Assembly: GCA_900318535.1 (NCBI GenBank)
Contig: ONKU01000011.1
Span: 44,306-108,305 of the forward strand
DNA from: an uncultured Prevotellaceae bacterium
Lineage (GTDB): Bacteria; Bacteroidota; Bacteroidia; Bacteroidales; Muribaculaceae
Direction of reading: 5' to 3'
DNA length: 64,000 nucleotides
Below are positions 21,553-49,875 of the stretch, in pieces. Below the pieces are notes generated by a model. The model was not told the origin of the DNA and did not search any database. It saw nothing but the letters and a program-made list of their open reading frames with translations. Each line of letters starts with the position of its first letter. The stretch's first letter is position 1. A program made the translations under genes and the position numbers.

Positions 21553-23628
21553 ATGAAAGAGAAATTGTTTACCAAATCGGCGTTCAAGATTGCGCTTGAG
21601 TGCCCTCGCAAGTTATATTACTATCGTAATCCTGAAATATACGCCAATGCTGATATGGAGGATGAGTTCCTTCTGGCGTTGGCTGAGGGTGGTTTCCAGG
21701 TTGGTGAGCTCGCCAAGATCTATTGCGGTGTTCCTCCCGAGAATGACATCAAGGAGAAGGACTATGAAGGCTCGCTGACTCGCACCCAGGAATTGATGCA
21801 ACAGCCAAAGGTGAATATTGCCGAGGCGGCGTTTCGCTATGGCAATCTGTTTGTGAGGGTGGATATCCTGAAGCGCGATGGCCATGTGATAGACTTGATT
21901 GAGGTTAAAGCTAAGTCATGGCACCCCGAAAAGGATAAATTTGAAGGGTCACGGCCCAAGGGTATCGTGCAAAGCGGCATTCGGTCTTATGTCTATGATG
22001 TGGCATTTCAGAAGTATGTCGTCACTCAAGCATTGAAAGAGATGTACCCTAATGAGACCTTTACTGTGCGAGCCCGGCTGATGATGGCGGACAAGAGCAA
22101 GACCGCTCATATCAACGGATTGAATCAACTGTTCAAAATCAAGAGGGTGGGCAAACAGGCCGAAATAGAGAGAGCCCCTAACATAGACCAAATACTGGTT
22201 CAGTCAGATGACCAGGTGCTGACGGCGTTTGACGTGGACGACTTATGCGACCGCGTGATTACAGGCGTGACAACAGAGCAAGGCAAGGACGGCTATATGC
22301 TCAATATGAAGTTCCTGGATTATGTCAACGCGATGTCGAAGTATTACTGCAGTAATACGCAGTTCCCCGACATCCACCTTGGCTCTGAATGCGTTGGTTG
22401 CCAGTTCCATAGCGACGGAAGCGACGGGAAACGTGACGGCTATCGCGAATGCTGGAAGGCGGCAGCGGGTTTCAATGACAGCGACTTCAACGAGCCGCTT
22501 GTGAAGGACCTGTGGGGCGCTTACATCAATCGAGGCGATTGGATACAAAAAGGCGTCTATAAAATGGTCGACATCACCGAGGACTTGTTGTCTCGTCACA
22601 CCGATAAACCGTCTTCTAACGGTCTGGACCACAAAGAGCGCAAGTGGCTACAGATTGCTATGTCTACAGACAATAAGGAATTGCTGGCAGACTATGCCAG
22701 CGACATTCTGGACTGCGGGGCTTATCTTGATGTCGAAGGGCTGAGGACTGAAATGGCAAAATGGAAGTTCCCCTTGCACATGATTGACTTTGAGACCACG
22801 GCAGTGGCCTTGCCCTATTATGTGGGGATGCGTCCTTATGAGCAGGTGGCGTTTCAGTTCTCGCATCACATCATCGAGGAAACCGATGATGGCGGCTACA
22901 CCATCCGCCACGCTGGGCAGTACCTCAATGAGGATGTTACCAAGTTCCCCAACTTCGAGTTCGTTCGTGCCTTGCGTGAGCAACTATCTAATGATGAAGG
23001 CACCATCTTCCGCTATGCTACTCACGAAAATTCAATACTGAATGCCATTCGTCGACAGTTGGATGAAAGCGATGAGGTGGATAGAGAGGAACTAATCGCA
23101 TTTATTGACGAGATTACACATGAATCGAAAACCAAGAGGGAAGGCGGTCCGCGCGACATGGTCGATCTGCTGGAGGTGGTGAAGCGTTACTTCTACGAAC
23201 CGCAAGAGATGGGTGGCAGTAACAGTATCAAGGTGGTGCTGCCTGCTGTGCTCAACGTGTCACAATTCCTCAAGGACAAGTACTCCAAGCCCATCTACGG
23301 CAAAGAGATACCCAGCCAGAACATCCCTTCGACCAATCCGATTGCCTGGATTGTCACCGATACGACAGGCCATGTCGAGAATCCATACCACCTGTTGCCG
23401 TCTGTAAGTAAATTGCTCGGCATCGCTATTATTGATGATGAGATGCTTGAGAAGATGGGCGAGGACATGACCATCGCCAACGGTGGCGCAGCCCTCACAG
23501 CCTACAACAAACTGATGTTCTGCAACGGCAACATGAGTGACGCCCTGCGCGAGGCCCTGCTCCGCTACTGCGAACTCGACACGATGGCCATGGTCTTTAT
23601 CTGGGAATTTTTCAACGATAATGTTTAA
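21553..23628 (+). CDS. Cas4/AddB-like Fe-S nuclease fused to an RNase H-fold exonuclease-like domain (DUF2779)
   Basis: About 691 residues from the ATG at 21553 (an ATG at 21538 is also possible). The N-terminal half has the signature of an iron-sulfur PD-(D/E)XK nuclease: C17 in ALECPRKLYYYRN, catalytic D103 (VRVDIL) and E117-V-K119 (LIEVKAKS), and a distal cysteine set C280, C283, C300. The C-terminal half is DUF2779: a DEDD-like start (HMIDFETT, D412/E414), RYATHENSIL, MVDLLEVVKRYF and a late LLRYCELD. DNA end processing is likely. It is the first gene after repeat copy B, with a TAATTTTG -7 box at 21510-21517, and is followed after 21 bp by the HNH gene. DUF2779 genes occur in defence islands, but their precise role is not known to me. 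Confidence 0.85.
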   Translation: MKEKLFTKSAFKIALECPRKLYYYRNPEIYANADMEDEFLLALAEGGFQVGELAKIYCGVPPENDIKEKDYEGSLTRTQELMQQPKVNIAEAAFRYGNLFVRVDILKRDGHVIDLIEVKAKSWHPEKDKFEGSRPKGIVQSGIRSYVYDVAFQKYVVTQALKEMYPNETFTVRARLMMADKSKTAHINGLNQLFKIKRVGKQAEIERAPNIDQILVQSDDQVLTAFDVDDLCDRVITGVTTEQGKDGYMLNMKFLDYVNAMSKYYCSNTQFPDIHLGSECVGCQFHSDGSDGKRDGYRECWKAAAGFNDSDFNEPLVKDLWGAYINRGDWIQKGVYKMVDITEDLLSRHTDKPSSNGLDHKERKWLQIAMSTDNKELLADYASDILDCGAYLDVEGLRTEMAKWKFPLHMIDFETTAVALPYYVGMRPYEQVAFQFSHHIIEETDDGGYTIRHAGQYLNEDVTKFPNFEFVRALREQLSNDEGTIFRYATHENSILNAIRRQLDESDEVDREELIAFIDEITHESKTKREGGPRDMVDLLEVVKRYFYEPQEMGGSNSIKVVLPAVLNVSQFLKDKYSKPIYGKEIPSQNIPSTNPIAWIVTDTTGHVENPYHLLPSVSKLLGIAIIDDEMLEKMGEDMTIANGGAALTAYNKLMFCNGNMSDALREALLRYCELDTMAMVFIWEFFNDNV

Positions 23629-23649
23629 CTTAATAAAATAATATGTGTG

Positions 23650-24909
23650 ATGGCAAAAGATGATAAGAACAAGAGACAGCAAAAGCCCCCAATAGAGAAA
23701 GAACAATTAAAGTATAGCATTTCAAAAAGAGGGAAAGGCAAATCTGAAAGGGCTGACTATCCTTCTGCTGATAAAATTGAGTCAAGGAGTTCTACAGTAG
23801 CTAGGGCTATGGCATCGACTTTAATGCCGAGAATTGCTGCAACGAATGATGAAAGACGTTCTATAGTATTGTTATCATTAGGAAACATTGTTAATCCAAA
23901 CGGGGAGAATATTATAAACGTTACAAATAATGGAAATATTAATGATGAAAACAAAGATGAAATAGTATTAATTAGAGATAAAAATAATCAAGTTATAACC
24001 ACATTGAAGTTAGAACATTTAAAATGTGTCTATTGCGGCCAAAAAGCGACGCATCTTGATCATCTATTCGCTTTTATTAAGGACAAGAAACCTACTGGAT
24101 ATTTTACAGAACCAGCCAATCTTGTACCTTGCTGTGATCAATGCAATCAAAAGAAAGGCGCAAAGGATTGGTATCAGTATATGATTGGTCTTGAAAATTC
24201 AGACAAAGAGTATTTTATAAACAAATTGGATAATTATTGCCACGAGAAGCACTTACCAGACAGAAATGGAAAGGTATTTGATATAAACGGAAAAACCGCA
24301 CAGAATGAGCATGTATTGGATTTCATGGGTGATGCTGAAATTAATAAATGGTGGAGTAAATTGTATAATGAAGTCGTAAACGCCCTCCATGATGCTCAGA
24401 TTCAGATTGATGCCTTCAAAGCGGGCATTAAGTACTCAATTAGGAGTTCAGTAACCGCTGTGGATACGAATTTCGAACAGTATTTTGCAGGATTAATTCA
24501 AAAGGAAATAGAAGAACTATTTCCCGAAATAAAAGATATGATAACAATAAAAGAGAAAGACATAAAAGAGAGACTTCATCACGAATTTGAAAGACAAATA
24601 ACAGATAATATAAATCAAAAGAATAATACTCAATCATCAGAAAAGAAGAGACAAAAGTCCTTTACGCTTTTAGAATATGGATTTAGGTTGGGTCAGAATT
24701 GGGAGGAATGGGAGGAACCCCACGACACAAAAGACAATAATGATAATGATATCGCAAAGAAACTATACGTCGCAGCAAAAAAAGCGTTTATTTTGGGATT
24801 TAATTATGCTAAACAACACGATTGTGAAACATTGAAAAGATGTATTAGAAGGGGTTGGCTGAACGATGTGATAATTCCTGTGACTGTGACTGAAAAGTCA
24901 AAAGATTAG
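23650..24909 (+). CDS. HNH endonuclease domain protein
   Basis: About 419 residues from the ATG at 23650. The centre holds an HNH/zinc module: LEHLKCVYCGQKATHLDHLF (CxxC then DH) followed by NLVPCCDQCNQKKG. The N-terminal 110 residues are basic and polar; the C-terminal 250 are helical with no motif I recognise. The gene is much more AT-rich than the DUF2779 gene 21 bp upstream, so the two may have different origins although they are probably cotranscribed. Nuclease activity on DNA is likely; the target is unknown. Confidence 0.82.
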   Translation: MAKDDKNKRQQKPPIEKEQLKYSISKRGKGKSERADYPSADKIESRSSTVARAMASTLMPRIAATNDERRSIVLLSLGNIVNPNGENIINVTNNGNINDENKDEIVLIRDKNNQVITTLKLEHLKCVYCGQKATHLDHLFAFIKDKKPTGYFTEPANLVPCCDQCNQKKGAKDWYQYMIGLENSDKEYFINKLDNYCHEKHLPDRNGKVFDINGKTAQNEHVLDFMGDAEINKWWSKLYNEVVNALHDAQIQIDAFKAGIKYSIRSSVTAVDTNFEQYFAGLIQKEIEELFPEIKDMITIKEKDIKERLHHEFERQITDNINQKNNTQSSEKKRQKSFTLLEYGFRLGQNWEEWEEPHDTKDNNDNDIAKKLYVAAKKAFILGFNYAKQHDCETLKRCIRRGWLNDVIIPVTVTEKSKD

Positions 24910-24912: not shown

Positions 24913-24990
24913 GTCTAGTTTTTCCGACAGAGAGTCCAGTTTTACCGACGGAAAAGTGTGGGACGGATCGAAAGGTTCGTCCTACTTTTG
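24913..24990 (+). promoter_or_regulatory. Shared operator-promoter, copy 1 (upstream of HTH protein 1)
   Basis: Two tandem operators, GTCTAGTTTTTCCGAC (24913-24928) and GTCCAGTTTTACCGAC (24934-24949), 21 bp apart, followed 34 bp later by the -7 box TACTTTTG (24983-24990). There is no good -33 box. The same layout occurs at 26523, 28942 and 32842. Confidence 0.85.
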
Positions 24991-25014
24991 CAGTGTCATT
25001 TTTTTTGAATGGCC

Positions 25015-25046
25015 TTTGCTTAATTTGAAAAGATTTTGTATATTTG
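25015..25046 (+). promoter_or_regulatory. Second, consensus promoter of HTH protein 1
   Basis: TTTG (25015-25018), 20 bp, TATATTTG (25039-25046): an exact Bacteroidota promoter 34 bp before the ATG. It would give basal transcription independent of the shared operators. Confidence 0.6.
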
Positions 25047-25079
25047 TCGAAGGTAGTAATTATAATAATAAATAGAGAT

Positions 25080-26216
25080 ATGGCAGAGAAATATCACGTT
25101 GGAAATGAGATTAAGAAAGAATTGAGTGCTCAAGGTAAGTCGGCCAGATGGTTGGCTAATGAGATTTGCCTCACGCCGCAGGCTGTGTATGACATTTTCA
25201 AGAAGGATGACATCAATACTGACCGCCTGATAAAGATTCAGCGTGTGCTGGGGCGCGACTTTTTCATGGAATATTCTCAATATGTTAAAAATGGGGGCGT
25301 TGTAGCTAATGAGGAGGACGAGAGTGTACTCCAGGAGCGTTTTGCACTGCTGATGCCCGAGGACAAGCTGCGTGTGCTCAAGCGCGAGACTTATGAAGAA
25401 CTGATTGAGGAGTTTGTTTTGACAGAGCACCACAAGCCGTTAGTGATTTTCACTAACGATCCCTATATTAAAGGCACCGTCGAGCGTGTTGTTGACAGAG
25501 AGTTGAAAACAGGTAAAATATATTATGTGGATTTGATTGGCATGCGCAAGAAAGGCATATCAGATGATGCCACCATCAGCCAAGTCCTTGCAATGCCTCA
25601 CCCTATTATGCATGTGGGATGTAATGGTGGCAATGAGTCGTTCAGTTTTATGGTCAAGCTGGCTCAGGAAACCGGCAAGAAAGTTTTTGCCTACTGTATG
25701 GAAAAAAACCATTTGAACAACTTCACAAACAACCTTGAGTATTATGACAGAGCGATTCAACTCTTTAGTGCCTGGCATGAGCAAATCCATTTTGCCTTTG
25801 TTGACGATGAGCGGCAGACCTATAGGCAGACACGGCAACTATTTTTGGCCAATTGGGGTAATGACATCTTGAGTTACATTAGGGCTTTCATACCTATTTT
25901 GTCTAAAGAAGAGAACGAGAAGAAAATCTGGGAATGGCTGAACAACCCCCAGCAGCTATATGGCGCCTACAGGGAATACCTTGATGTTAAGGCTGCTGAT
26001 TTACCCAGATTAAAAGATTTCAGCCTCATGTATATGGATGATGAAGTGAACATCAAGCAGAATGGCTTGCGCTGGAACATCAGCCTACCCGTGGATCAGC
26101 TAACAGTGCAGAGCAACCACAACGTATTAATGAAGATAGTGCCTCTCCATCTGTCCACATGGATCGATATTGACTGTAACGGAATCAGAGACTATGAAGA
26201 TTCACCATTGCATTAA
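25080..26216 (+). CDS. HTH protein 1 of the island regulon, C-terminal domain unrecognised
   Basis: About 378 residues from the ATG at 25080, the first start after the consensus promoter. Residues about 5-70 form an XRE-type helix-turn-helix (KKELSAQGKSARWLANEI, LTPQAVYDIFKK). The rest (about 95-378) is a mixed alpha/beta domain with KPLVIFTNDPYIKG, HVGCNGGNESFSF and WHEQIHFAFVDDE, but no Walker A motif. HTH protein 2 at 33.7 kb has the same layout and similar segments (STPLLILEAGYTFG; RHEQFFIVVY), so the two are paralogues. The gene is preceded by shared operator copy 1, so it may be an autoregulated sensor-regulator of the set. I do not recognise the family. Confidence 0.75.
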   Translation: MAEKYHVGNEIKKELSAQGKSARWLANEICLTPQAVYDIFKKDDINTDRLIKIQRVLGRDFFMEYSQYVKNGGVVANEEDESVLQERFALLMPEDKLRVLKRETYEELIEEFVLTEHHKPLVIFTNDPYIKGTVERVVDRELKTGKIYYVDLIGMRKKGISDDATISQVLAMPHPIMHVGCNGGNESFSFMVKLAQETGKKVFAYCMEKNHLNNFTNNLEYYDRAIQLFSAWHEQIHFAFVDDERQTYRQTRQLFLANWGNDILSYIRAFIPILSKEENEKKIWEWLNNPQQLYGAYREYLDVKAADLPRLKDFSLMYMDDEVNIKQNGLRWNISLPVDQLTVQSNHNVLMKIVPLHLSTWIDIDCNGIRDYEDSPLH

Positions 26217-26243
26217 TATTTCAGAACAAGATAACATCTGGAT

Positions 26244-26513
26244 ATGAGCAGGAGCAAATTAAGGAGTCGCTGGATGCGAAAGTGTTGGGGTTCGACCGAC
26301 GAACGGAATCCTCATCGGTTGGACGAGATGCCGAAGAACAGGCCATCCCGTCACATCGTGATGCGCTGCAGCAGTGTCGAATGGCTTCAGGAGAGTGGCT
26401 CCTTTGGCGGCCACAAGGTCAAGCATGAGGGGCACCGAATGGTGAGTGGTATCGTTCGACAAAAAGTGAAAGAAGAGTTGCGCCAGCAGATTTCGGATGA
26501 ATTATCAGAGTAG
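26244..26513 (+). pseudogene. Doubtful 89-codon ORF, possibly a frame-disrupted remnant
   Basis: The frame is open for 89 codons, but the first half is unusually rich in Arg and Trp while the last 40 residues (VKEELRQQISDELSE) look like a real helical C-terminus. In another frame, about 26229-26428, a more natural peptide is read (EQEQIKESLDAKVLGFDRRT) that stops at TGA. Together they look like one small gene broken by a frameshift. Low confidence. Confidence 0.3.
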
Positions 26514-26522
26514 AATGACGCT

Positions 26523-26601
26523 GTCAAGTTTTTCCGACAGGTGGTGTCCAGTTTAACCGACGAAAAATCGTAGGTCAGGTTTTGGATTCGATATAATTTT
26601 G
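26523..26601 (+). promoter_or_regulatory. Shared operator-promoter, copy 2 (upstream of the 303-residue unknown)
   Basis: GTCAAGTTTTTCCGAC (26523-26538) and GTCCAGTTTAACCGAC (26546-26561), 23 bp apart, then after 33 bp the -7 box TAATTTTG (26594-26601). No proper -33 box is visible, which suggests dependence on an activator. The bases after the -7 box (GCAGCGTCAAA) match copies 1 and 4. Confidence 0.85.
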
Positions 26602-26672
26602 CAGCGTCAAACCTTCGGAGATTGGGATTTGGCGCTGCTTAAGATTATTCATCAATTAAAACATATCGAATT

Positions 26673-27584
26673 ATGACAGTAAAAGAATTAAAGAACGCCC
26701 TGCTGGGCATCAGCGAGCCTATCGACCGCATCGCCGGTTTCTGTGACAACTATGACCAGATGTTTGACCACTGCGAGGTGCGTGTTAACGAGAACACCGT
26801 GGAGATTGACACCGATAAGGACCTTTTCGATCCCAAAAACTATCAGACTGTTACCGAATCTATTGCTCAGATTCTTGCCTTGCCCGATGAGATGGATAAC
26901 CACTTCGTTTTGTATGAGGGCGTGGACAATCATGCCGAGACTGTCCTGCTCACGCGAGATATCCGCAGGGTCACTGTCGTGAACGGCACAACGGGGTGTG
27001 GGATCAGTCTGCAAGGTCCGCAGCCGAGTGGCATATTGAATCAACATTGCTATTTGACTAAATTGTTCGTGAACGATGAGCGAGCCAAGTCGCTCAACCA
27101 GGAGTTTTACGATTTCCTGGACGAATTGGACATCACCTGTGACTTCATGGATTCCCGTGAAACGGATGAAGGCATTTTCGTCCAATTTCTCGCTGACGGG
27201 GTCTCGAGTGCGACGGTGATTGCCTTGATGGCCGGCACATTCAAGGATGTGGTTTTCTGCCGCGTTCCGTATGACAGCAGTGATGAGGTAATCAATCGAC
27301 TCACAAACGACCATGAAGGCCACTGCTGGGGCAAGCATGCAGCCGTCTACGTGCCTGCCGATGACCGTGAAAGTGTTATCAACTATGAGCGTTATAAGTA
27401 TTGCATTCAGGACATGGTCTATGCCAAGAGGGAGTGTGATACCGAGCAGGAGGCGGTGCAGTTCATCGCCGAGCACAACCCTGACAAGGAACTGGGCGAC
27501 ATTGCAGTGCGCTTTGTCAGCCGCTACATCGAGAATCCTCTTGACCTCATCCTGAAGCCTTGGCCAGAAGATGATTACGAGTAA
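26673..27584 (+). CDS. Unrecognised 303-residue acidic protein of the island regulon
   Basis: I do not recognise this protein. It is soluble, acidic (many Asp/Glu), with no signal peptide, membrane segment or nucleotide-binding motif. Notable stretches are FDHCEVRVNENTVEID, VNGTTGCGISLQGPQPSG, a central 'FYDFLDELDITCDFMDS', and HCWGKHAAVYVPADD. It ends in LILKPWPEDDYE. It starts 71 bp after the -7 box of shared operator copy 2 and is followed by the hydrolase gene, which also has its own -7 box. Its membership in the co-regulated set is the only functional clue. Confidence 0.75.
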   Translation: MTVKELKNALLGISEPIDRIAGFCDNYDQMFDHCEVRVNENTVEIDTDKDLFDPKNYQTVTESIAQILALPDEMDNHFVLYEGVDNHAETVLLTRDIRRVTVVNGTTGCGISLQGPQPSGILNQHCYLTKLFVNDERAKSLNQEFYDFLDELDITCDFMDSRETDEGIFVQFLADGVSSATVIALMAGTFKDVVFCRVPYDSSDEVINRLTNDHEGHCWGKHAAVYVPADDRESVINYERYKYCIQDMVYAKRECDTEQEAVQFIAEHNPDKELGDIAVRFVSRYIENPLDLILKPWPEDDYE

Positions 27585-27610
27585 CCTTTAAGTTATTCAG
27601 TAAAAATGAC

Positions 27611-27618
27611 TATATTTG
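27611..27618 (+). promoter_or_regulatory. Candidate -7 box of the hydrolase gene
   Basis: TATATTTG, exact TAnnTTTG, 31-37 bp before the two possible ATG starts of the hydrolase, with a TTTA -33-like element about 19 bp upstream. Confidence 0.5.
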
Positions 27619-27648
27619 CATTCAGAAAAATATCAATTTAATGATTTC

Positions 27649-28821
27649 ATGACTATGAACGAGAAGAAGATAAAAGTTTATGCTCAAGTTGGAGACGATT
27701 TGCTCTTTGATGTATATGTGACCGTTTCTCAAGAAGCGTGGGACAACGAGATAGATGCTCTTGAAGGGGCGGTGAGGGACGACATTGAGAACTGTGAGGA
27801 CGATGAGGACCTTGAGGATGAATTTGATGAGGAAACTAATGAAGGTTCATCGACCAATAAGGACAACTATTATGGTGGCTATATCGGCACAACTGATGGT
27901 AATAGCCATGGTTATACTTCTGCCCAAGGACAAATCGCTTACCACTTGGTTTCCTGTCAATTCGGTAGTATATTGGCAGACCTCGGAGTTCTCGAGCAAC
28001 TGCGTGATGCCATCGTTGAGGATCTTGTTAAGTGTGATGCTGACCATCGGTATGAGGAAGAGTTGCTGATGCTTAAACGTATCAATAATTTTGTGCAAGC
28101 GATGTTGGGAGAAGATGCGGATGATTGCGAATTGTACGAAGATTGTGGCAGCGGCGATGAAGAACAGATCGTTACTATTTGGGATCGCTATCCTCTTGAA
28201 CTGTTGGATGAACTGGCCGAGAGAGTTTATGGCGTTCCACAAAAGAAAACCATCGTTTATCTGCATGGCTACGGATCCAGTAGCCAGAGTAGCACCATGA
28301 AATATCTGGCCAAAAACATGCCGGATTACAACGTGATTGCCCCGGATATTCCCATTGACCCAGCAGAGGCTCTACCGTTCTTGAAGGACTATTGCAGGAC
28401 TCATCATGCCGACCTTGTGATCGGCACCAGCATGGGTGGCATGTATGCCATGCAGATGGCGGGCATGCTGCGAATCTGCGTTAATCCTGCTCTACATCTG
28501 TCTGAAGTGAAGGGTGTCCTGCAGGTAGGTACTTTTGAGCGTTTCCAGCCGACCGCCGATGGGCAGACCCACTACACAATTACCGAAGAAATCATCGAGC
28601 ATTTCAAGGAAATGGAACAGAACCTCTTTGTTCGCGAGAGAAATGAAGGTAAGTACGATTGTTGGGGCTTCTTTGCCGACGGGGACACACTTGTGAACTG
28701 CAAGGACGAGTTTGCCCAACATTTCACTCATGTGGAAGATTTCCATGGCGAACACCGCATGAACGAGTCCGTCCTTCACGACGTCATCATTCCCGCCGCC
28801 AAAAGAATCCTCAAGGAGTAA
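27649..28821 (+). CDS. YqiA-like alpha/beta hydrolase with an acidic N-terminal domain
   Basis: About 390 residues from the ATG at 27649 (or 27655). The C-terminal 200 residues are an alpha/beta hydrolase of the YqiA/YcfP esterase type: KTIVYLHGYGSSSQSS, nucleophile Ser in VIGTSMGGMYAMQ, acid in FFADGDTLVN, and a late His in GEHRMNES. The N-terminal 190 residues are unusual for that family: a beta-rich start (KIKVYAQVGDDLLFDVYV), then a very acidic run (ENCEDDEDLEDEFDEE) and a helical part. Ordinary YqiA is about 190 residues, so this is a fusion. A terminator follows at 28911. It lies in the same direction right after the 303-residue unknown. Confidence 0.8.
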   Translation: MTMNEKKIKVYAQVGDDLLFDVYVTVSQEAWDNEIDALEGAVRDDIENCEDDEDLEDEFDEETNEGSSTNKDNYYGGYIGTTDGNSHGYTSAQGQIAYHLVSCQFGSILADLGVLEQLRDAIVEDLVKCDADHRYEEELLMLKRINNFVQAMLGEDADDCELYEDCGSGDEEQIVTIWDRYPLELLDELAERVYGVPQKKTIVYLHGYGSSSQSSTMKYLAKNMPDYNVIAPDIPIDPAEALPFLKDYCRTHHADLVIGTSMGGMYAMQMAGMLRICVNPALHLSEVKGVLQVGTFERFQPTADGQTHYTITEEIIEHFKEMEQNLFVRERNEGKYDCWGFFADGDTLVNCKDEFAQHFTHVEDFHGEHRMNESVLHDVIIPAAKRILKE

Positions 28822-28910
28822 TAGCCCTAGATGACTTATTGAGTTAGTTGTTCGGCATGACCTTCAGCATTGTGTCAACTCGCTGATATTCAACCCCTAA
28901 TCAATGATCG

Positions 28911-28941
28911 ACAAGCTCTGATGTTTTCAGAGCTTGTTTTT
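28911..28941 (+). terminator. Intrinsic terminator after the hydrolase gene
   Basis: ACAAGCTCTGA and TCAGAGCTTGT form a perfect 11-bp stem with a 5-base loop, followed by TTTTT. It separates the hydrolase unit from shared operator copy 3, which starts one base later. Confidence 0.85.
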
Positions 28942-29020
28942 GTCCAGTTTTTCCGACGCTGGGTGTCAAGATATACCGACGCGAAACGCTTTTTGGGGTC
29001 GTTGGACGGCTGTAATTTTG
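28942..29020 (+). promoter_or_regulatory. Shared operator-promoter, copy 3 (upstream of the membrane peptide-AAA+ pair)
   Basis: GTCCAGTTTTTCCGAC (28942-28957) and GTCAAGATATACCGAC (28965-28980), 23 bp apart, then after 33 bp the -7 box TAATTTTG (29013-29020). TTTG at 28992-28995 is 17 bp before the -7 box. Confidence 0.85.
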
Positions 29021-29048
29021 CACCATGAAAAATATGAAAGGAGAAAAT

Positions 29049-29249
29049 ATGGTTAAATCGATTTTTGCATCGCTTTTATTGCTGGCAAGCATCGCTATCG
29101 TCTGCTTCCCGCTGCTGGTCGTGTGGGTGGGCATTACGGCCCATCTGTCCTTCTGGGGTCACATTTGCGTGACCTCCTTTGGCTTGTTCCTGTGCTATCT
29201 GGTCAAGCCTGTGTCAATCCTTACCGGTAACGATTATCAACTTTTCTAA
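29049..29249 (+). CDS. Small two-span membrane protein paired with the AAA+ ATPase
   Basis: 66 residues from the ATG at 29049, chosen because AAAGGAGAAAAT just before it is a good ribosome binding site (rare in this phylum) and because the ATG at 29025 lies only 4 bp after the -7 box. Two hydrophobic segments are clear: SIFASLLLLASIAIVCFPLL and ITAHLSFWGHICVTSFGLFL. No family recognised. It is the first gene after shared operator copy 3 and ends 12 bp before the AAA+ gene, so the two should be translated together; it may anchor the ATPase to the membrane. Confidence 0.7.
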   Translation: MVKSIFASLLLLASIAIVCFPLLVVWVGITAHLSFWGHICVTSFGLFLCYLVKPVSILTGNDYQLF

Positions 29250-29261
29250 CACCTGTTGCCA

Positions 29262-30929
29262 ATGAACGAGATTGATCAAATCATTGAAAAGATGACGCAA
29301 TTTGAGGTCATTGAGAGTGTTGTGCGCAATGCTCAGGATTCTGAATTGGATGCCGCGTTCTTTAAACACGTCGGTCCTTTCCTGAAAAAGATCGCTGACA
29401 AGCAAAATCTTACCGAGGATCAAGCACTGATGTTTTGTCTAATGATGAACTTCTGTGACAGTTCGCACATTAGATTGGGTGAACTGGCTCGCCATACGGG
29501 CTTGTCCACCGTTCATCTGTTGAAGTACCTTAACGACATCGATGAACTGGTCAAGCGTGGCTTCCTCAAGTTGACCATCAGACATAACGACGGAGGCTAC
29601 GCCATCCGTCATGAGGTAATCAAGGCCTTGAAGCAGGACAAGGCTTTTGAGAAGGTCTCTCATCGAGGTATCACTTGCCCAGAGATGTTCGACTTGATTG
29701 GGCAAGTTTTGATCGAGGAGGATGATTATGACGCTCAGCAGGAGCAGATTCAGAATCTGTTCCAGGATAATCCTCAATTGCACATAGCACAGGTCATCAA
29801 GGGGTATCAGCTCAATGCTGATGATACCATGTTGTTGATACTGTTCTGTTTCCTGTATGTGGACAATGATGACGATATGGTAAGGATTTCAGACCTCGGC
29901 GAACTCATCGACAGCCAGCGCCTGTTGCGCTCATGGAACCGCACTCTGTCGAGGGAGCAGCACCCGTTGCAGGAAAAGAAACTGATTGAGTTCAATAGCC
30001 TCAGCCCGATGATTGACACCCGTTACTATCGCCTAACCGACGAGGCTAAGGCCAATTTGTTGAGCGAAATGGACATCTGCGTCAAAAAGAAGTCAAAGAA
30101 GAAAGAGTTACCCAAGGACTTTGTCGACCATAAGAGCGTTGTAGCCAAACAGATGTTCTACACCAGCAAAAACCAGGCTCAGGTGGAGCGCCTCTCGCAG
30201 TTGCTTGAGGAGAAGAAGTTCCGCGATGTGTGCCGCCGCATGAAAGAGCGTGGTATGCGCACTGGTTTTGCGTGCCTTTTCTATGGCGCGCCTGGTACCG
30301 GCAAGACCGAGACCGTGATGCAACTTGCCCGGCAGATGAAGCGCGACGTCATGGTCGTGGATTTCGCACAAATCCGCAGCAAGTGGGTAGGGGACAGCGA
30401 GAAGAACATCAAGGGCGTGTTTGAGCGCTATCGCCATTTCTGCAAACAACTGCGCCGCAAGCCCATCCTGCTTTTTAACGAGGCCGACGCAGTGATCAAT
30501 ACCCGCCAGGAGCAGGCCACCCACAGCGTGGATAAGATGGAGAACACCATGCAGAACATCATCCTGCAGGAGATGGAACAGTTCGACGGCATCATAATTG
30601 CCACGACCAACCTAGTCCAGAATATGGACCCTGCCTTCGAGCGCCGCTTCCTCTACAAAATCCAGTTCGAGCGCCCCGATGCTGAGGTGAGGCAACACCT
30701 CTGGCAGGAAATGATTCCCGAACTGGACACTGGTGAGTGCCAGGCGCTGGGTATGCAGTTCGACTTCAGCGGAGGCCAGATCGAAAATGTGGCCCGCAAA
30801 TATGCCATCAACACCATCCTCAACGACATCGAGCCAAGCAACCGCTTGACCGAGCTGACCACACTCTGCCGCGAGGAATGCCTCAACTACACCGAGTCAA
30901 CGCGAACCCACGTCGGCTTCGTCGCCTAA
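29262..30929 (+). CDS. AAA+ ATPase with winged-helix-like N-terminal half
   Basis: About 555 residues from the ATG at 29262. The C-terminal 230 residues are an AAA+ module of the CDC48/FtsH kind: Walker A FYGAPGTGKTET, pore-loop-like IRSKWVGDSEKNIKGVF, Walker B ILLFNEADA (N in place of the usual first D), sensor 1 IIATTN, arginine finger FERRF. The N-terminal 300 residues are helical with winged-helix-like parts (LGELARHTGLSTVHLLKYL; EKKLIEFN) and a linker KKKSKKKELPKD. Similar ATPases are found in Bacteroidota next to unknown genes. Remodelling of a DNA-bound or membrane complex is inferred only. Confidence 0.82.
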   Translation: MNEIDQIIEKMTQFEVIESVVRNAQDSELDAAFFKHVGPFLKKIADKQNLTEDQALMFCLMMNFCDSSHIRLGELARHTGLSTVHLLKYLNDIDELVKRGFLKLTIRHNDGGYAIRHEVIKALKQDKAFEKVSHRGITCPEMFDLIGQVLIEEDDYDAQQEQIQNLFQDNPQLHIAQVIKGYQLNADDTMLLILFCFLYVDNDDDMVRISDLGELIDSQRLLRSWNRTLSREQHPLQEKKLIEFNSLSPMIDTRYYRLTDEAKANLLSEMDICVKKKSKKKELPKDFVDHKSVVAKQMFYTSKNQAQVERLSQLLEEKKFRDVCRRMKERGMRTGFACLFYGAPGTGKTETVMQLARQMKRDVMVVDFAQIRSKWVGDSEKNIKGVFERYRHFCKQLRRKPILLFNEADAVINTRQEQATHSVDKMENTMQNIILQEMEQFDGIIIATTNLVQNMDPAFERRFLYKIQFERPDAEVRQHLWQEMIPELDTGECQALGMQFDFSGGQIENVARKYAINTILNDIEPSNRLTELTTLCREECLNYTESTRTHVGFVA

Positions 30930-30995
30930 ATAAAAAACAACTGATTCATCTGAATAATCTGAGCTAATCATCATTCATTCAATCGCCATCATGTA

Positions 30996-31017
30996 GAGCC
31001 GCGAAATATTGCGGCTC
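30996..31017. repeat. Palindromic REP-like element, second copy
   Basis: GAGCCGC and GCGGCTC form a perfect 7-bp stem (extended by flanking pairs) around GAAATATT. Same design as the element at 16754-16781. It lies in the 159-bp gap after the AAA+ gene and could act as a 3' hairpin. Confidence 0.5.
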
Positions 31018-31088
31018 TCAAAGGCGGATGTCAATTCATTAAACATTAACCAGAGAGCAAGTCAACAACTTGCGAACTTTTAAGAAAC

Positions 31089-31265
31089 ATGGAACGATAC
31101 AAAGTCTATTTTAAAATCAAGGGAGACGACTGTCTCAACATTTACTACACCAGTGCCACCTGCGAGCAAGAGGCCATCTGGCAATGGCAAGCCAGCTTCT
31201 TCGCCAAGAACAACGAGTGCGAATTCCTCAGTGTGAAACTTGCTTCACCAGAAAAGAATCAGTAA
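31089..31265 (+). CDS. 58-residue small protein, unrecognised
   Basis: ATG at 31089, stop at 31263-31265. It reads MERYKVYFKIKGDDCLNIYY, then TSATCEQEAIWQWQASFFAK and a beta-strand-like end. The amphipathic beta start and the aromatic helix look like a real compact domain (an 'A..F' ferredoxin-like half fold). It lies between the AAA+ and the PD-(D/E)XK genes, same direction. No known family. Coding status is judged from composition and position. Confidence 0.55.
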   Translation: MERYKVYFKIKGDDCLNIYYTSATCEQEAIWQWQASFFAKNNECEFLSVKLASPEKNQ

Positions 31266-31284
31266 CTTTGCTTTGCCAATTCAA

Positions 31285-31342
31285 AAAGAGAAAGCCGAAT
31301 CGCATGAAAGGAAGTAGGCAATAACTTAATCTGAAGATTATT
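31285..31342 (+). repeat. Duplicated 5' leader, copy 1
   Basis: The sequence AAAGCCGAATCGCATGAAAG to GATTATT just before the ATG at 31343 is repeated before the ATG at 32997. It contains a 6-codon ORF, ATG AAA GGA AGT AGG CAA then TAA. See the finding on the leader. Confidence 0.75.
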
Positions 31343-32704
31343 ATGGCACAAAACAACTGGGACGAGATTTTTAAATTCAACAATGATTCAAATGTCAATC
31401 AACTGAGAAACATTTATTCTACTCCTTCTTGGTTCGAGATATTGGGTGTTGACCGGATTGAGGCATTGCATAGCAATTTTATTGCTTGGTTTTTAAGCAA
31501 TAAGAATTTGGGACTCAATCCAAGCGATAATGCCATGACCAGGTTTGTTGATGTGGTTATAAAAAAGAGTAAAGAGCAACTGGCAAAAGAAATTGATTCA
31601 GATTTCATCAATTCTGTGGCATCACGAGGCATAGTCATCAAGGATATTGATGTTGATAAAGAAGTATCCTATAAAGACAGCAAAAAAAACAATCGTATTG
31701 ATTTGATTGTCACTTGTGAAATCTGCGTTAATAACGAAGAGAAAGAACTTGTGCTTTATATCGAGAACAAAGTAGGTGCCAATGAAACGTTCAACAAAAG
31801 CAGCGATCAGTTTCAAACTCAAGTTTATTATGACCAGTATCATGAAGTTGATGATGCAGATAGGATCCAACTTTTTGTGTTCCTATCTCCTTATGACAAC
31901 GCAAAATGTGATTGCAATGAATTCATTAAAGTCACTTACAATGATTTGCTGATGTATGTACTTAAACCTATTGCTAATATACCCGCCATTAGTAAACATG
32001 ACAGATGCTTCATCAATGAATACATCAGAACTCTGGGTGCTCAAGTGTTGAATCACCAAGACATGGGTTTTGTAATGGCTATTACTGACGAAGAAGAGCA
32101 TGCATATTCTGAGATTTACAGGGTGTTTAGCCCATTATTCATGAGTGCAATGGCTGCTAAAATCTCAGAACGGTACAGAAAAAGCTCACCACAAACGAAA
32201 GAAAAATGGTCCAAGAAGTTGAATGAATGGGGATTAGATTTCGTTAATGAACCAGATGAGCAACTTGTCGCTTTTTGGGACAATAACAGCGCCTTAATTA
32301 AAAACACGATAGATATAGCAGCACCACAAAATAAAGGCGATCTGTTAGATGCCATTAATGTCATTCTCAAAGACAGGACAAAATATACAATAAAGTATAT
32401 GGATGAAAAGCCCAGAATGCTGAATAAGAGTCATTTGGCGAGTGAAATCGTTAATGCATATATCCTGTTGAATGGGCTAAATGAAAATGATTTAGATGCT
32501 TTAAGACGATTTTTCAACAATATTAGAGAACCATTTATTCTTGACAAAAAACCAGTTCAAAGCAATGAGAGGGCGCTTTACGATCCTGTAAACTTAGGTA
32601 CTAGGCAAATATGGATTCCTAATCATTGTTGGCCCGCAGGAAGCCGTCCATTTGAACGCTTACTCAAGGTAGCTGGCAAAATAGAAGGATTGACAATAGA
32701 ATAA
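31343..32704 (+). CDS. PD-(D/E)XK nuclease superfamily protein (PDDEXK_4 type)
   Basis: 453 residues. The N-terminal half carries the family marks: LHSNFIAWFLSN at the start, NNRIDLIVTCEI (catalytic Asp), LVLYIENKVGANET (E-x-K) and QTQVYYDQY. This is the PF14281-like PD-(D/E)XK family common in phage-defence regions. The C-terminal half is helical and ends in a WxP-rich strand region (RQIWIPNHCWPAGSRPFE). The gene has the duplicated leader directly upstream and a strong terminator downstream (32767). DNA cleavage is likely; specificity unknown. Confidence 0.82.
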   Translation: MAQNNWDEIFKFNNDSNVNQLRNIYSTPSWFEILGVDRIEALHSNFIAWFLSNKNLGLNPSDNAMTRFVDVVIKKSKEQLAKEIDSDFINSVASRGIVIKDIDVDKEVSYKDSKKNNRIDLIVTCEICVNNEEKELVLYIENKVGANETFNKSSDQFQTQVYYDQYHEVDDADRIQLFVFLSPYDNAKCDCNEFIKVTYNDLLMYVLKPIANIPAISKHDRCFINEYIRTLGAQVLNHQDMGFVMAITDEEEHAYSEIYRVFSPLFMSAMAAKISERYRKSSPQTKEKWSKKLNEWGLDFVNEPDEQLVAFWDNNSALIKNTIDIAAPQNKGDLLDAINVILKDRTKYTIKYMDEKPRMLNKSHLASEIVNAYILLNGLNENDLDALRRFFNNIREPFILDKKPVQSNERALYDPVNLGTRQIWIPNHCWPAGSRPFERLLKVAGKIEGLTIE

Positions 32705-32766
32705 ACTCGAAAAGTCAAAAATGTAGGCTTTTATCTTAAGCAAATCTTGATAAAAATAGTATATTT

Positions 32767-32803
32767 GCCATTGGATTGTTAAGGCAATCCAGTGGCATTT
32801 TAA
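32767..32803 (+). terminator. Intrinsic terminator after the PD-(D/E)XK gene
   Basis: GCCATTGGATTG and CAATCCAGTGGC form a 12-bp stem with one mismatch and a 6-base loop, followed by ATTTTAATT. It isolates this unit from shared operator copy 4. Confidence 0.75.
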
Positions 32804-32841
32804 TTGAAACAACCATCACTCCACGATGCAGTGATGTGTGT

Positions 32842-32920
32842 GTCAAGTTTTTCTGACATGGCTGTCCAGAATGACGATACAAAAAAACTTGGTGGGGTTT
32901 GACGGTGTGTAGTAATTTTG
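32842..32920 (+). promoter_or_regulatory. Shared operator-promoter, copy 4 (upstream of the YubB-like gene)
   Basis: GTCAAGTTTTTCTGAC (32842-32857) and a more divergent GTCCAGAATGACGATA (32864-32879), 22 bp apart, then after 34 bp the -7 box TAATTTTG (32913-32920) with TTGG 20 bp before it. The following GCAACGTCAAA matches copies 1 and 2. Confidence 0.8.
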
Positions 32921-32942: not shown

Positions 32943-32996
32943 AAAAAGCCGAATCGCTTGAAAGGACGTAGGCAGTAACTTAACAATGAGATTATT
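32943..32996 (+). repeat. Duplicated 5' leader, copy 2
   Basis: Near-identical to 31285-31342, ending at the ATG at 32997. The short ORF here starts with TTG: TTG AAA GGA CGT AGG CAG then TAA. Confidence 0.75.
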
Positions 32997-33665
32997 ATGG
33001 CAAACTACATGTTATCAAATTATGTGATTGAGGGCAAGAAGGCCGAACTAGACGAGTTTGAGGCCATGCTGCGTCGTCTTGAAGCGATGAAGGAAGAAGA
33101 CTTTCCTATCAAAGATGTGAGTTGGGGTTCGACATGGCTCGGTTTTATTATCAACGAATTAGGCCAGGATTGGAATGGGTATAATTGCAAAGGGGCGTGG
33201 CATAACCTTGAGCGTCGCGGTGATGATGCGCTTGCTATCACTTTTGAATCGGCTTGGGAGGCTCCAGAAGGCATGTTGGACCTTATTGCTGAGAGATGGT
33301 CCAGTTTCAAATATTACTTCTATCGTGAAGAGCCGGGCAGCGAGGTTTATGAGACCAATGATGTCGAGGGAAAATATTTTCCGTGCCGTTATTATCTGCG
33401 TGGCTTAGTGCCCAACGATAGCGAAGAGGCCATGGATGGTTTTTTGCAGTTTGATGAATATCTGAACACTGAAGAAGACGCTTTGGCCTATATGTGCAAC
33501 AAACTCAATCATCCCGTCAAGAGCTTGGTTGACATCGAGACTTGGAATGCGGAATTGGAAAAGCTGAGCGAGGAAAATGACGATTACTGCGATTGCTACA
33601 TCTATATGAACGAAATAGACGTTTTAGTTGAACTTGATTTTGATGGCATTGAGCCGATATGTTGA
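32997..33665 (+). CDS. YubB/DUF1281-like ferredoxin-fold protein
   Basis: 222 residues, acidic, no signal peptide. The pattern 'KKAELDEFEAML ... DVSWGSTWLGF ... ITFESAWEAPEGMLDLIAERW ... FYREEPG' matches the layout of the YubB/DUF1281 (Api92-like) ferredoxin-like family found on plasmids and phages, where function is unknown. The C-terminal third (AEKLSEENDDYCDCYIYMN-like end) is specific to this protein. It starts 76 bp after the -7 box of shared operator copy 4 and is followed after 41 bp by HTH protein 2, so the two form one unit. Confidence 0.65.
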   Translation: MANYMLSNYVIEGKKAELDEFEAMLRRLEAMKEEDFPIKDVSWGSTWLGFIINELGQDWNGYNCKGAWHNLERRGDDALAITFESAWEAPEGMLDLIAERWSSFKYYFYREEPGSEVYETNDVEGKYFPCRYYLRGLVPNDSEEAMDGFLQFDEYLNTEEDALAYMCNKLNHPVKSLVDIETWNAELEKLSEENDDYCDCYIYMNEIDVLVELDFDGIEPIC

Positions 33666-33706: not shown

Positions 33707-35203
33707 ATGAAAGAAGAGGACAAAAAAAAGAAAAAAATAGGGCAGATTATCAAGGCGGAGGTGGAACGTCAAGGACTGAGCGCCACTCAATTTGCCGACA
33801 AGATTTGTGTTTCCCGCACCAACGTTTATGGAATCTACGATCGGAGGACCATTGATTCCGGTTTGCTGGCTAAAATCTCAGAGGTACTGCATCATAATTT
33901 CTTTGAAGAGCTGAGCCAAAGGGTCAACTTGAAGTTAGGAATTGTATCATCCCCAATGGCCAACTTGAAGTTACATTCATTGAGCGATATTGTGGAAAAT
34001 GTAGTGGACGGTGATTTGTATGCCACTCATGAATTCGCCAAGGAGCGTGAAGGTCTCAAGGCGTTGCTCAAGGAATATTTCGAGAGCGATCAGAGTACAC
34101 CCTTACTTATCCTTGAGGCCGGCTATACCTTCGGCGCTCGCGAGGTGGTAAAGCAAGTGGCAAATGAGGTGTTTCCTGGGACAGGCTCAGCTCCGTGTCC
34201 CAAACTATTGGACGCGGCTAAGTTGAATTCCGAATCAGCCAAGGTTTTTATTGACTATATAGACCGCAACACGTTTGACTCCGTTGAAGAAAGCAAGAAA
34301 CGGCTGAACGAAATCTGCTATGTGCAGAGCGGTGTGAACAAGAAGATGGTGTGCATCATCCACACCGACCCCATCATGCCCCAGTCTGGTAAGAACGATG
34401 TTCAAACGTTTGACCAATGGGGGAATGAGATGTCTCTTTTCCCAGAGCGCCACGAGCAGTTCTTCATCGTGGTTTATCGCTGGAACAGGAACAGTCTTTT
34501 GTCATGGGCTACGGATGCAGGATTGCATAAACAGGTCCTGAACTACATTAGCAAACATCAGATTCCAGAGGACACCCGCAAGGATTATCAGCTAATGAAC
34601 ATTCGTGCGTCATTTTTTGAAATCCTCTTGGGGTTACCTCCCTTGGATAATGGCATAGATTATCCCACCGCCCAAGCCTACATGCCGAGCGAGTGGCAAT
34701 ATGCCTCGGACTTCATCGCCGCTGGACATGACCTTGATGAAGAGGAGCCCCTGCACGATTTCATTCAAGACATTATCGATTTTAACGAGATGTGCGCCAA
34801 GCAAAATAGTGCTGCAGAAAAGCCTAAAACCAAGTATCTAGAGTGTAACGTTGAGGTCGATGGTTATCTCGTCGAAGGATTAAAGCTGGTCTTGACCGAA
34901 ACCGAAGCTGGGGCACTGGCAGATCTCTATCATCAAGCCTGGGAAACCGACCTGAAAGGTCTGGACGAGTATGATGACATGGACAAGTTCTTCCCCTGGT
35001 TGGAGGAGCATAATCCGGAGATGGCACAAGCATTGGTGGAAGCTGCCGAAGCCGCTTTGGCCGATCTGCTGGCCCAGGATCTTGAAGGCATATACACCGA
35101 GAATATCCCTCATGTAGCTCCACAAAGTTTTGATGATTATTGGGCTGTAGAAGCTGGCCTAAAATACAACATCATGCCCTGTGACCTCCCCAAGTGGAAA
35201 TAA
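33707..35203 (+). CDS. HTH protein 2 of the island regulon, paralogue of HTH protein 1
   Basis: 498 residues. A lysine-rich start leads into an XRE-type helix-turn-helix (about 10-70: VERQGLSATQFADKICVSR and TNVYGIYDRR). The middle domain (about 110-330) resembles HTH protein 1: STPLLILEAGYTFGAREVVK and RHEQFFIVVYRWNRNS. It has no Walker A motif, so if it descends from an NTPase it is inactive. The C-terminal 130 residues (LECNVEVDGYLVEGLKLVLT, then helices) are extra. It is cotranscribed with the YubB-like gene. It is the last gene before repeat copy C. Function as a regulator of the shared operators is inferred from the HTH and location. Confidence 0.75.
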   Translation: MKEEDKKKKKIGQIIKAEVERQGLSATQFADKICVSRTNVYGIYDRRTIDSGLLAKISEVLHHNFFEELSQRVNLKLGIVSSPMANLKLHSLSDIVENVVDGDLYATHEFAKEREGLKALLKEYFESDQSTPLLILEAGYTFGAREVVKQVANEVFPGTGSAPCPKLLDAAKLNSESAKVFIDYIDRNTFDSVEESKKRLNEICYVQSGVNKKMVCIIHTDPIMPQSGKNDVQTFDQWGNEMSLFPERHEQFFIVVYRWNRNSLLSWATDAGLHKQVLNYISKHQIPEDTRKDYQLMNIRASFFEILLGLPPLDNGIDYPTAQAYMPSEWQYASDFIAAGHDLDEEEPLHDFIQDIIDFNEMCAKQNSAAEKPKTKYLECNVEVDGYLVEGLKLVLTETEAGALADLYHQAWETDLKGLDEYDDMDKFFPWLEEHNPEMAQALVEAAEAALADLLAQDLEGIYTENIPHVAPQSFDDYWAVEAGLKYNIMPCDLPKWK

Positions 35204-37377: not shown

Positions 37378-37542
37378 TGCTTTTGAGAATGTAAAAAAAA
37401 CTAGTTGGGTTTGCTAAAGAATGCCTGAGGCCGCAAGTCAAGATCACAGTGGGGGCTATTAATAGATATCGCATGAGTGATATTCACCGGATTATAGAAG
37501 GCGGCGACTCCAATCACACTTTCTTATTATTGAACTATTGTT

Positions 37543-39129: not shown

Positions 39130-39894
39130 ATGAAGATTCAATTTGCATCTGATTTACACTTGGAGTTCCGAGAGAACTGGCGATATCTAAGGGACAATGG
39201 CCCCATGGACGTGAAGGGTGACATCCTGGTCTTGGCTGGGGACACGGGTTACCTGGGAGACGACATGTACAGCGTGCACCCATTCTGGGACTGGGCGTCC
39301 GAAAACTTTGAGCAAGTGCTGGTCGCACTGGGCAACCACGAGTTTTATAAATACTACGACCTAAAGACGATACAGGACGGACTGGTGGGCGAAATCCGCC
39401 CCAATGTTCACTACTACTATAACAAGGTCGTAACGATCCAGGATGTGGACTTCATCATATCCACCCTGTGGGCCCATATCGACATGGACAACGCCTTCGT
39501 CAGCGAGCGAGGCGTGGCCGACTTCTACCGCATCGTCTATGGCGAAAACCTGTTGAGGTATTCTGATTTCAACGGAGAGCATCAGCGCTGCCTCGACTTC
39601 ATCAAGAAGTCCGTCAGCGCCAGCCAGGCCAAGCACAAGGTCGTTGTCACCCACCATGTTCCATCCTATCAACTGGTCGCCCCAGAGTTCCAGGGCAGCC
39701 GCATCAACGGCGCATTCACCGTCGAACTGACCGACTACATAGCCGACAGCGGAATCGACTATTGGATCTATGGCCACTCCCACCGCAACATAGACAAGAC
39801 CATCGGCTCCACCCGCTGCCTCTGCAACCAATTCGGCTACGTCTCCTACAACGAACACCTCATCTTCGATAGGACAAAGATTATTGAGATATGA
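39130..39894 (+). CDS. Calcineurin-like metallophosphoesterase
   Basis: 254 residues with the full metal-binding motif series: FASDLHLEF (D-x-H), LAGDTG (GD), LGNHEFYKY (GNHE), VVTHHVPS (H) and YGHSHRN (GHxH). A two-metal phosphoesterase acting on an unknown cyclic nucleotide, nucleotide or phosphoprotein. The first 37 residues are nearly repeated in the chimeric ORF at 41.8-42.1 kb on the opposite strand. No operon partner. Confidence 0.92.
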   Translation: MKIQFASDLHLEFRENWRYLRDNGPMDVKGDILVLAGDTGYLGDDMYSVHPFWDWASENFEQVLVALGNHEFYKYYDLKTIQDGLVGEIRPNVHYYYNKVVTIQDVDFIISTLWAHIDMDNAFVSERGVADFYRIVYGENLLRYSDFNGEHQRCLDFIKKSVSASQAKHKVVVTHHVPSYQLVAPEFQGSRINGAFTVELTDYIADSGIDYWIYGHSHRNIDKTIGSTRCLCNQFGYVSYNEHLIFDRTKIIEI

Positions 39895-46864: not shown

Positions 46865-47084
46865 AATTGGTCTATGATATGTTGGTGATTATTTGTTTCT
46901 TCTTTTGTATGTTAGTCGTTGACAAATCTTGTTGTTTTAGTCTAGATGCCCACAAATATACGTATTATTCTAACTAAGTGAACTGGTATGGAGTGGAATT
47001 TGCACGTTTTTGGAAAGTGACTCTCACATTTTATTTCGTCATGCCAGTATTTCATACAAACTAATTGTTATGAGTAATGAGATA

Positions 47085-49874: not shown

Positions 49875-49875
49875 G

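Follow-up and report, generated by a model that had tools for sequence, protein, structure and literature searches.

Paired GTC-N10-GAC sites before four island units of an uncultured Bacteroidales genome suggest a dedicated, island-encoded regulon

In a 64,000-nucleotide stretch of contig ONKU01000011.1 (assembly GCA_900318535.1, an uncultured Prevotellaceae bacterium; hereafter the window), four transcription units of a genomic island are each preceded by a pair of GTC-N10-GAC sites and a promoter -7 box. These units begin with the helix-turn-helix (HTH) protein HTH1, with the 303-amino-acid protein P303 and a hydrolase, with a small membrane peptide and an AAA+ ATPase, and with a cargo gene followed by HTH2, a paralogue of HTH1. 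Comparative genomics supports a dedicated regulon shared by such island units. With a probability of roughly two in three, the four pairs serve as tandem operators for a single regulator encoded on the island, with HTH1 as the likeliest candidate, possibly acting with HTH2; this regulator would activate these promoters, control its own gene and coordinate backbone and cargo genes. The elements on which this reading rests are as follows.

24913-24949, plus strand: unit 1 operator pair (sites 24913-24928 and 24934-24949); the pair precedes HTH1 in 6 genomes
24983-24990, plus strand: unit 1 -7 box, TACTTTTG
25080-26216, plus strand: HTH1, a 378-amino-acid XRE-type HTH protein with an orphan C-terminal domain; candidate regulator from a weak Pfam HTH_3 match and co-occurrence with the sites
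26523-26561, plus strand: unit 2 operator pair (sites 26523-26538 and 26546-26561)
26594-26601, plus strand: unit 2 -7 box, TAATTTTG
28942-28980, plus strand: unit 3 operator pair (sites 28942-28957 and 28965-28980)
29013-29020, plus strand: unit 3 -7 box, TAATTTTG
32842-32880, plus strand: unit 4 operator pair (site 32842-32857 and a variant second site, 32864-32880)
32913-32920, plus strand: unit 4 -7 box, TAATTTTG
33707-35203, plus strand: HTH2, a 498-amino-acid paralogue of HTH1 (hhalign probability 97.7 over 123 columns), present in 6 of 101 genomes of the genus

The four pairs, beginning at 24913, 26523, 28942 and 32842, all lie on the plus strand, as do the genes. Seven sites were detected in the window at up to three mismatches, compared with 0.89 expected, and seven were reached in none of 100 shuffles. 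A preliminary description of this DNA had reported four such pairs, each composed of the same two 16-mers. Their positions and strand are correct, but exact GTCCAGTTTTTCCGAC occurs solely at 28942 and exact GTCCAGTTTTACCGAC solely at 24934, with the five other detected sites deviating by 1-3 bases. The second site of pair 4 (32864, GTCCAGAATGACGATAC) was missed at three mismatches and represents a variant form seen again in relatives. The start-to-start spacing of the paired sites is 21, 23, 23 and 22 bp in pairs 1-4, in agreement with the 21-23 bp proposed earlier. The consensus of the first site (site 1) is TGTCMAGTTTTTCCGACA. Among 26 first sites, GTC is exact in 25 and GAC in all 26, always with N10 between them, whereas the site-to-site start spacing varies from 21 to 23 bp, suggesting that GTC-N10-GAC is the bound unit.

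The pairs stand at a nearly constant distance from the promoter. Site 1 precedes the -7 box by 70, 71, 71 and 71 bp in window units 1-4, and the gap between the second site (site 2) and the box, which reads TACTTTTG once and TAATTTTG three times, is 32-33 bp rather than the fixed 33-34 bp first claimed. A passage of PMC7366714 gives TAnnTTTG as the -7 consensus of Bacteroidota primary-sigma promoters. This box is present in 26 of 26 units from seven genomes, beginning 70 (10 units), 71 (13 units) or 72 bp (3 units) after site 1; the units were picked by their sites, and the first TAnnTTTG more than 50 bp on was taken as the box. The motif occurs about once per 1,760-1,880 bp, and the chance of hitting a 3-bp slot is p ~0.0016-0.0017. 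A damaged unit in genome G096, excluded from the 26, has its box at 72 bp and one extra base within site 1. Around the box the promoters are less uniform. No -33-like TTTG or TTGG lies at a suitable distance in window units 1 and 2, but unit 3 has TTTG and unit 4 CTTGG, so the statement that most of these promoters lack a good -33 box applies to the first two units and not to the others; in relatives, the element is always found in the unit 4 type, whereas the other types are mixed or lack it, some units of types 2 and 3 having it and most others not. Likewise, the sequence GCAnCGTCAAA, said to follow the box in three of four units, is complete in two (26601 and 32920), while unit 1 has GCAGTGTCATT and unit 3 has GCACCATGAAA.

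A position matrix from the seven window sites was applied to the window and to five further island regions, recovering six units in G050, four in G059, four in G060, three in G029 and two in G088 plus two on a second contig. All matches above 13.5 bits in the island stretches are parts of units, and matches outside units score 13.4 bits or less. Similar pairs lead orthologous island units in five further genomes of the genus, and a seventh genome (G072) has one unit. The search of related genomes that the preliminary description had proposed therefore finds the sites with the same backbone genes, their distance to the promoter being fixed. The genes of the backbone follow one another as DUF2779 protein, nuclease-type cargo, [pair] HTH1, small open reading frames (ORFs), [pair] P303, hydrolase, cargo, [pair] membrane peptide, AAA+, cargo, [pair] cargo, HTH2. 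This order is incomplete in some genomes: in G060 the DUF2779 protein is absent from that end and the membrane peptide is followed by an HNH gene with no AAA+ gene; in G059 the nearest AAA+ genes are merely ~40% identical and HTH2 was not found; and in G029 HTH2 has no fourth pair ahead of it. The cargo, including the nucleases, varies among genomes, and in G050 the counterpart of the PD-(D/E)XK nuclease gene has an operator unit of its own, whereas the window copy is without a pair. The single multi-part system suggested earlier thus reduces to a conserved backbone of HTH1, P303, hydrolase, membrane peptide, AAA+ and HTH2, and does not extend to the nucleases and other cargo.

The sites are nearly confined to these islands. 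In the own genome (2.92 Mb, 43 contigs), a whole-genome scan detected no sites beyond the four places, either at one mismatch or as the strict pair. In eight genomes scanned whole, 33 of 35 one-mismatch single sites fall in islands or in the G072 remnant (6 matches for the reversed control), and the two strays lie within coding genes, making a host-wide regulator unlikely. A loose pair pattern gave 11 matches in 101 genomes of the genus, against 4 for the reversed pattern; 10 of the 11 are true pairs from four islands, and the remaining one is a long hairpin in G066. The strict pair has no match in 313 genomes from 29 other genera of the family and none in viral contigs; across 84,980 species it was found in six stretches, five in three related metagenome-assembled genomes (MAGs) and one in an unrelated gammaproteobacterial MAG. 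This restriction makes an island-coded regulator likelier than a host one. Scattered sites without promoters, or membership in a mobile repeat family, would have spoken against the hidden regulon proposed at the outset; instead, a -7 box follows each pair, nearly all sites are in islands and no sign of such a family was seen. With the same genes, a fixed distance and sites almost nowhere else, that proposal holds as a dedicated regulon at the level of comparative genomics.

The pattern of conservation points to the same elements. Identity was compared for 22 units, leaving out three extra units and the second G050 copy of unit 4. Among orthologous units, mean identity is 0.26-0.40 over the 16 bp that precede site 1, 0.82-0.92 in site 1, 0.64-0.85 in site 2, 0.65-0.85 in the DNA from site 2 to the box and 0.92-1.0 in the -7 box. 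When the different unit types of one genome are compared, identity is highest at site 1 (0.89), site 2 (0.65) and the -7 box (0.87) and lower in the upstream DNA (0.28), in the DNA between the elements (0.34-0.46) and in the first 16 bp past the box (0.50), indicating that the common part of the four units consists chiefly of the operator and the -7 box. Sites, geometry, conservation against diverged upstream flanks and restriction to islands all emerge from direct comparison of the sequences.

Co-occurrence favours HTH1 as the binding protein. A homologue was identified in 7 of 101 genomes of the genus, six of them with the HTH domain, and operator sites occur in each of the seven. The six HTH-bearing copies share an almost invariant recognition-helix region, PQAVYDIFKK, whereas that of HTH2 varies. 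In G072, HTH1 is intact (48% identical), and directly upstream of it a double operator (GTCAAGTTTTACCGACA-N5-ATCAAGTTTTACCGACA) lies 70 bp before a -7 box; the neighbours of this gene are a short hydrolase-like ORF and an ORF resembling the membrane peptide by eye, and no P303 or HTH2 match was found in this genome. The retention of HTH1 with its own double operator where P303 and HTH2 were not found makes HTH1 the best candidate. G059 (82% complete), where HTH2 was not found, likewise combines HTH1 with four operator units. The HTH_3 matches are weak (18.1 and 16.9 bits against a curated Pfam cut-off of 23), as are the HTH matches of HTH1 to solved structures (best E 0.23), while HTH-region matches in genomes of the order reach E 9.8e-17. 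In a 393-genome draw of the order, matches to HTH1 outside its own genome cover the HTH region alone, and no match was found in plasmids, phages or viral contigs. The paralogy of HTH1 and HTH2 spans the HTH and the beginning of the C-terminal domain in hhalign, and the C-terminal domain of neither protein has an informative family match. An AlphaFold model of HTH1 from 3 sequences has a mean predicted local distance difference test score (pLDDT) of 52.6 and was used for rough secondary structure alone, giving a C-terminal domain that is alpha/beta at low confidence.

In the favoured arrangement, a dimer would bind each GTC-N10-GAC site, and two dimers, two helical turns apart on one DNA face, would be centred ~75 and ~52 bp before the expected transcription start, which should lie a few bases past the -7 box judging from the consensus in that passage of PMC7366714. 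Dimers placed just upstream of the -33 region could bring RNA polymerase to promoters whose -7 box is good and whose -33 box is often poor; the far-upstream position of the pair favours activation, and the pair before the regulator's own gene suggests an autoregulated circuit. Its output would be joint expression of P303, the hydrolase, the membrane peptide, the AAA+ ATPase and HTH2 with exchangeable nuclease-type cargo, and the HTH1 promoter may be limited by a further palindrome in the interval from pair to -7 box. Which protein binds, that its effect is positive, what triggers it and that the island serves defence are inferences; induction by stress or phage, as the preliminary description suggested, would be conjecture. 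The palindrome and two elements downstream of other boxes are located as follows.

24961-24982, no strand: imperfect palindrome GGACGGATCGAAAGGTTCGTCC in the pair-to-box interval of HTH1 promoters, read by eye
26601-26638, plus strand: strong hairpin where the unit 2 transcript is expected to begin (-20.7 to -25.7 kcal/mol, 6 of 6 genomes)
32946-32973, plus strand: shared 5' leader element AAGCCGAATCGCTTGAAAGGACGTAGGC, with a second copy at 31292-31319 before the PD-(D/E)XK gene

A sequence similar to the palindrome is found in 5 of 6 HTH1 promoters and not in that of G072; it may be a repressor or autoregulatory site with a damping effect. The hairpin stands right behind the unit 2 -7 box, so the P303 mRNA probably starts with it, and it may act as a stability element or an attenuator. 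The 28-nt leader has seven copies in four genomes (the window genome, G050, G060 and G088), ahead of different genes; five stand behind an operator pair and two (window 31292 and G050 24140) do not. A short way upstream of the copy at 31292 lies TAACTTTG.

Several observations weigh against this reading or limit it. The DNA from site 2 to the box is also fairly conserved among orthologues (0.65-0.85), so recent common descent accounts for part of the likeness between units. Concerted change of site 1 within genomes is not significant (14.35 versus 14.22 identical bases, permutation p 0.21), leaving concerted evolution of the sites unsupported. The activator sign is deduced from the position of the pairs and from -33 boxes that are weak in part, and some of the promoters do carry a -33-like element. 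Site 2 of the unit 4 type has a different sequence, and the two dimers may therefore not be equivalent. In G029, the HTH1 homologue (290 amino acids) is without an HTH, yet three operator units with a common CTGAC variant are kept, implying that HTH1 does not bind alone in this genome, unless its role has passed to HTH2 or another protein. In G096 (83% complete, 340 contigs), the operator unit is damaged and the HTH2 frame shortened, and HTH1 was not found. All pair-bearing genomes belong to one genus, and several are incomplete MAGs. Two details concern the genomes just named. The HTH-less homologue of G029 is encoded at L080:8977-10203, behind an operator and a small membrane peptide, and contig L122 of G096 (6857 bp) has the appearance of a decaying island remnant, in which site 1 has an extra base, the membrane-peptide gene an in-frame stop and the HTH2 frame is shortened.

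The alternative that HTH2, or an HTH1-HTH2 pair, is the true binder appears doubtful. HTH2 is an HTH1 paralogue, all six of the 101 genomes that encode it have operator DNA (damaged in G096), and it retains its HTH in G029, where HTH1 has none; however, operators are present in G059 and G072, where HTH2 was not found, and the HTH2 recognition helix varies while the site does not. It is rather unlikely that the pair is a repressor operator, keeping the island silent until the C-terminal domain of HTH1 or HTH2 detects a signal and repression is lifted, in the manner of CapW, BrxR or RptR. Repression is indeed the mode of several known defence-island regulators, CapW among them, and the extra palindrome beside the -7 box in 5 of 6 HTH1 promoters fits the place of a repressor. 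An inhibitory role of BrxR is discussed in a section of PMC9122589, and RptR represses via direct repeats according to an account in PMC12255303. The pair itself, however, ends 32-33 bp before the -7 box, beyond the polymerase contacts needed for simple occlusion, and activation better suits the fixed distance and the weakness of the -33 boxes in units 1 and 2.

That the pairs are transposon ends or recombination sites bounding exchangeable cassettes, with the promoter as a passenger, is very improbable. Similarity does start sharply at site 1, immediately behind the upstream genes, the cargo varies by genome, the shared leader stands ahead of different genes and two tyrosine integrase genes lie at 35953-38919. 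Against this, the sites are on the gene strand in every unit, inverted copies are absent from the window at up to 3 mismatches and from the islands above 13.5 bits, and pairs occupy orthologous places in several species, with two chance intragenic single sites elsewhere in eight genomes. In the other island stretches no relative of the window integrases was found, G050 having a resolvase gene instead, and no transposase family is among the Pfam matches of the proteins scanned. The ends of IS21-type elements, which are paired terminal repeats of similar look, were considered and rejected, as the own genome has two IstB-like matches only, of which one passes the cut-off and neither is on the contig of the window, and the sites never occur in inverted orientation. 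Control of the units by a host-wide transcription factor would suit promoters of the ordinary Bacteroidota type, but it is hardly credible given that the own genome has no further copies and that a loose search found no true pair in island-free genomes of the genus.

As tandem operators of an island-encoded HTH regulator, the pairs resemble those of known regulatory circuits. The controller (C) proteins of restriction-modification (R-M) systems are small HTH-only proteins. For C.Esp1396I, the relevant passages of PMC3758141 describe how HTH dimers bind pairs of pseudo-symmetric operators, making GAC/GTC contacts, ahead of its own promoter and others in the system. Here too, operator pairs stand ahead of the gene of the regulator and further genes of the system, but the arm spacing differs, with a T-rich N10 here in place of the TATA spacer described for C-protein sites, and the regulators are large, HTH1 having 378 amino acids with a sizeable C-terminal domain and HTH2 498. 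HNH and PD-(D/E)XK proteins are present, but a set of restriction and modification genes is not, since no methyltransferase is among the Pfam matches of the scanned proteins of 21.5-35.2 kb (p89 and a 58-amino-acid ORF lay outside the scan) and the C5 methylase at 59023-60402 is 24 kb away. RptR is described in parts of PMC12255303 as a 9-kDa repressor of a phage defence island acting on TAGCTA repeats that overlap the island promoter -10 box. It is likewise an island-encoded autoregulator with repeated promoter sites, site and regulator being conserved together, whereas here several promoters bear a far-upstream pair. Because protein size, site and site position differ and no modification gene was found in the units, the system belongs to neither the R-M controller nor the RptR type; the circuit works like an R-M controller system but is not one.

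BrxR and CapW (winged HTH-WYL-WCX proteins) are dedicated regulators encoded with a defence system, as portrayed in a section of PMC9122589, and the regulator of this defence-like island would resemble them in that respect. HTH1 and HTH2, however, have no WYL match, and a WYL protein lies farther off in G060. The AAA+ protein matches the IetA models of the IetAS system at 98.4 bits, below the IteA cut-off of 510. The partner in IetAS, IetS, is a subtilisin-like protease, and the scan of window proteins matched no protease-type partner. Within the terms used, the open-access literature searched showed neither this site nor this island. Near the G060 island, L020:1545-2492 encodes a WYL-WCX regulator, and proteins of similar start are encoded near the G029 and G059 islands. 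Short proteins of like start are encoded at L017:19119-19496 and L020:2839-3186, within or beside the G050 and G060 islands; the G050 copy is sigma-70-like (regions 1.2 and 2), and no such ORF was noticed in the window.

The remaining genes of the island core are as follows.

21553-23628, plus strand: DUF2779 protein (E 3.9e-21), left neighbour of the backbone in 5 of 6 islands
23647-24909, plus strand: HNH nuclease-like cargo, directly upstream of unit 1
26244-26513, plus strand: p89, a small conserved ORF, ~71-73% identical in three relatives
26673-27584, plus strand: P303, a 303-amino-acid protein, 81-91% identical in three relatives
27649-28821, plus strand: alpha/beta hydrolase with a UPF0227/YqiA-like domain
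29049-29249, plus strand: small membrane peptide (AAGGAG before ATG 29049; upstream ATG at 29025); the start region is common to five other islands
29262-30929, plus strand: AAA+ ATPase with an IetA-like C-terminal half
31343-32704, plus strand: PD-(D/E)XK nuclease-like cargo (PDDEXK_4; PADLOC candidate PDC-S26)
32997-33665, plus strand: 222-amino-acid protein with a weak Api92-like ferredoxin-fold match (DUF1281_C, E 0.0005, below the curated cut-off), the YubB-like protein of the preliminary description

PADLOC models match the AAA+ protein (IetA, E 2.8e-30), the PD-(D/E)XK protein (PDC-S26, E 1.4e-19) and the HNH domain; such similarity does not prove a defence system, and a defence role would be an extrapolation from it. 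P303 has no informative family match, and solved structures gave nothing useful (best E 0.27). Remote homologues, 31-37% identical, are encoded at 13 loci in 12 other genomes of the genus; no operator pair was found in these 12 genomes, one of which has a stray single-pattern match in L086, suggesting that P303 occurs in other settings too. Rfam returned no match at gathering thresholds in 20-40 kb of the window.

The two integrase genes at 35953-38919 are in tandem, immediately past the island core. Farther on, minus-strand defence-like operons extend over 43009-60402, including a McrBC-type pair (AAA_5/EVE and McrBC, 43009-46864) and a set with the C5 methylase, HATPase and Z1-domain genes (55293-60402). 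Two ORFs at 39130-39894 and 41830-42105 have nearly the same start (MKIQFASDLHLEFREN and MRIQYASDLHLEFREN) on opposite strands, the second being far shorter.

In our judgement, the joint switching of many defence-like island genes is poorly understood, above all in Bacteroidota. The comparison defines the operator, its geometry and one leading candidate regulator sharply enough for direct binding and reporter testing, and the decayed G072 copy would represent a minimal autoregulated unit. Regulon membership also marks neighbouring genes as belonging together, including P303 and the HTH1 and HTH2 C-terminal domains that lack an informative family match. A more tentative idea is that the island is a portable plug-in, in which one regulator pair combining an HTH with an orphan, perhaps alpha/beta, sensor domain is joined by new effectors through a copied promoter module of fixed geometry. 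This module would comprise the double operator, the -7 box and sometimes the common leader, and, if the idea is right, exchangeable nucleases would come under one sensor.

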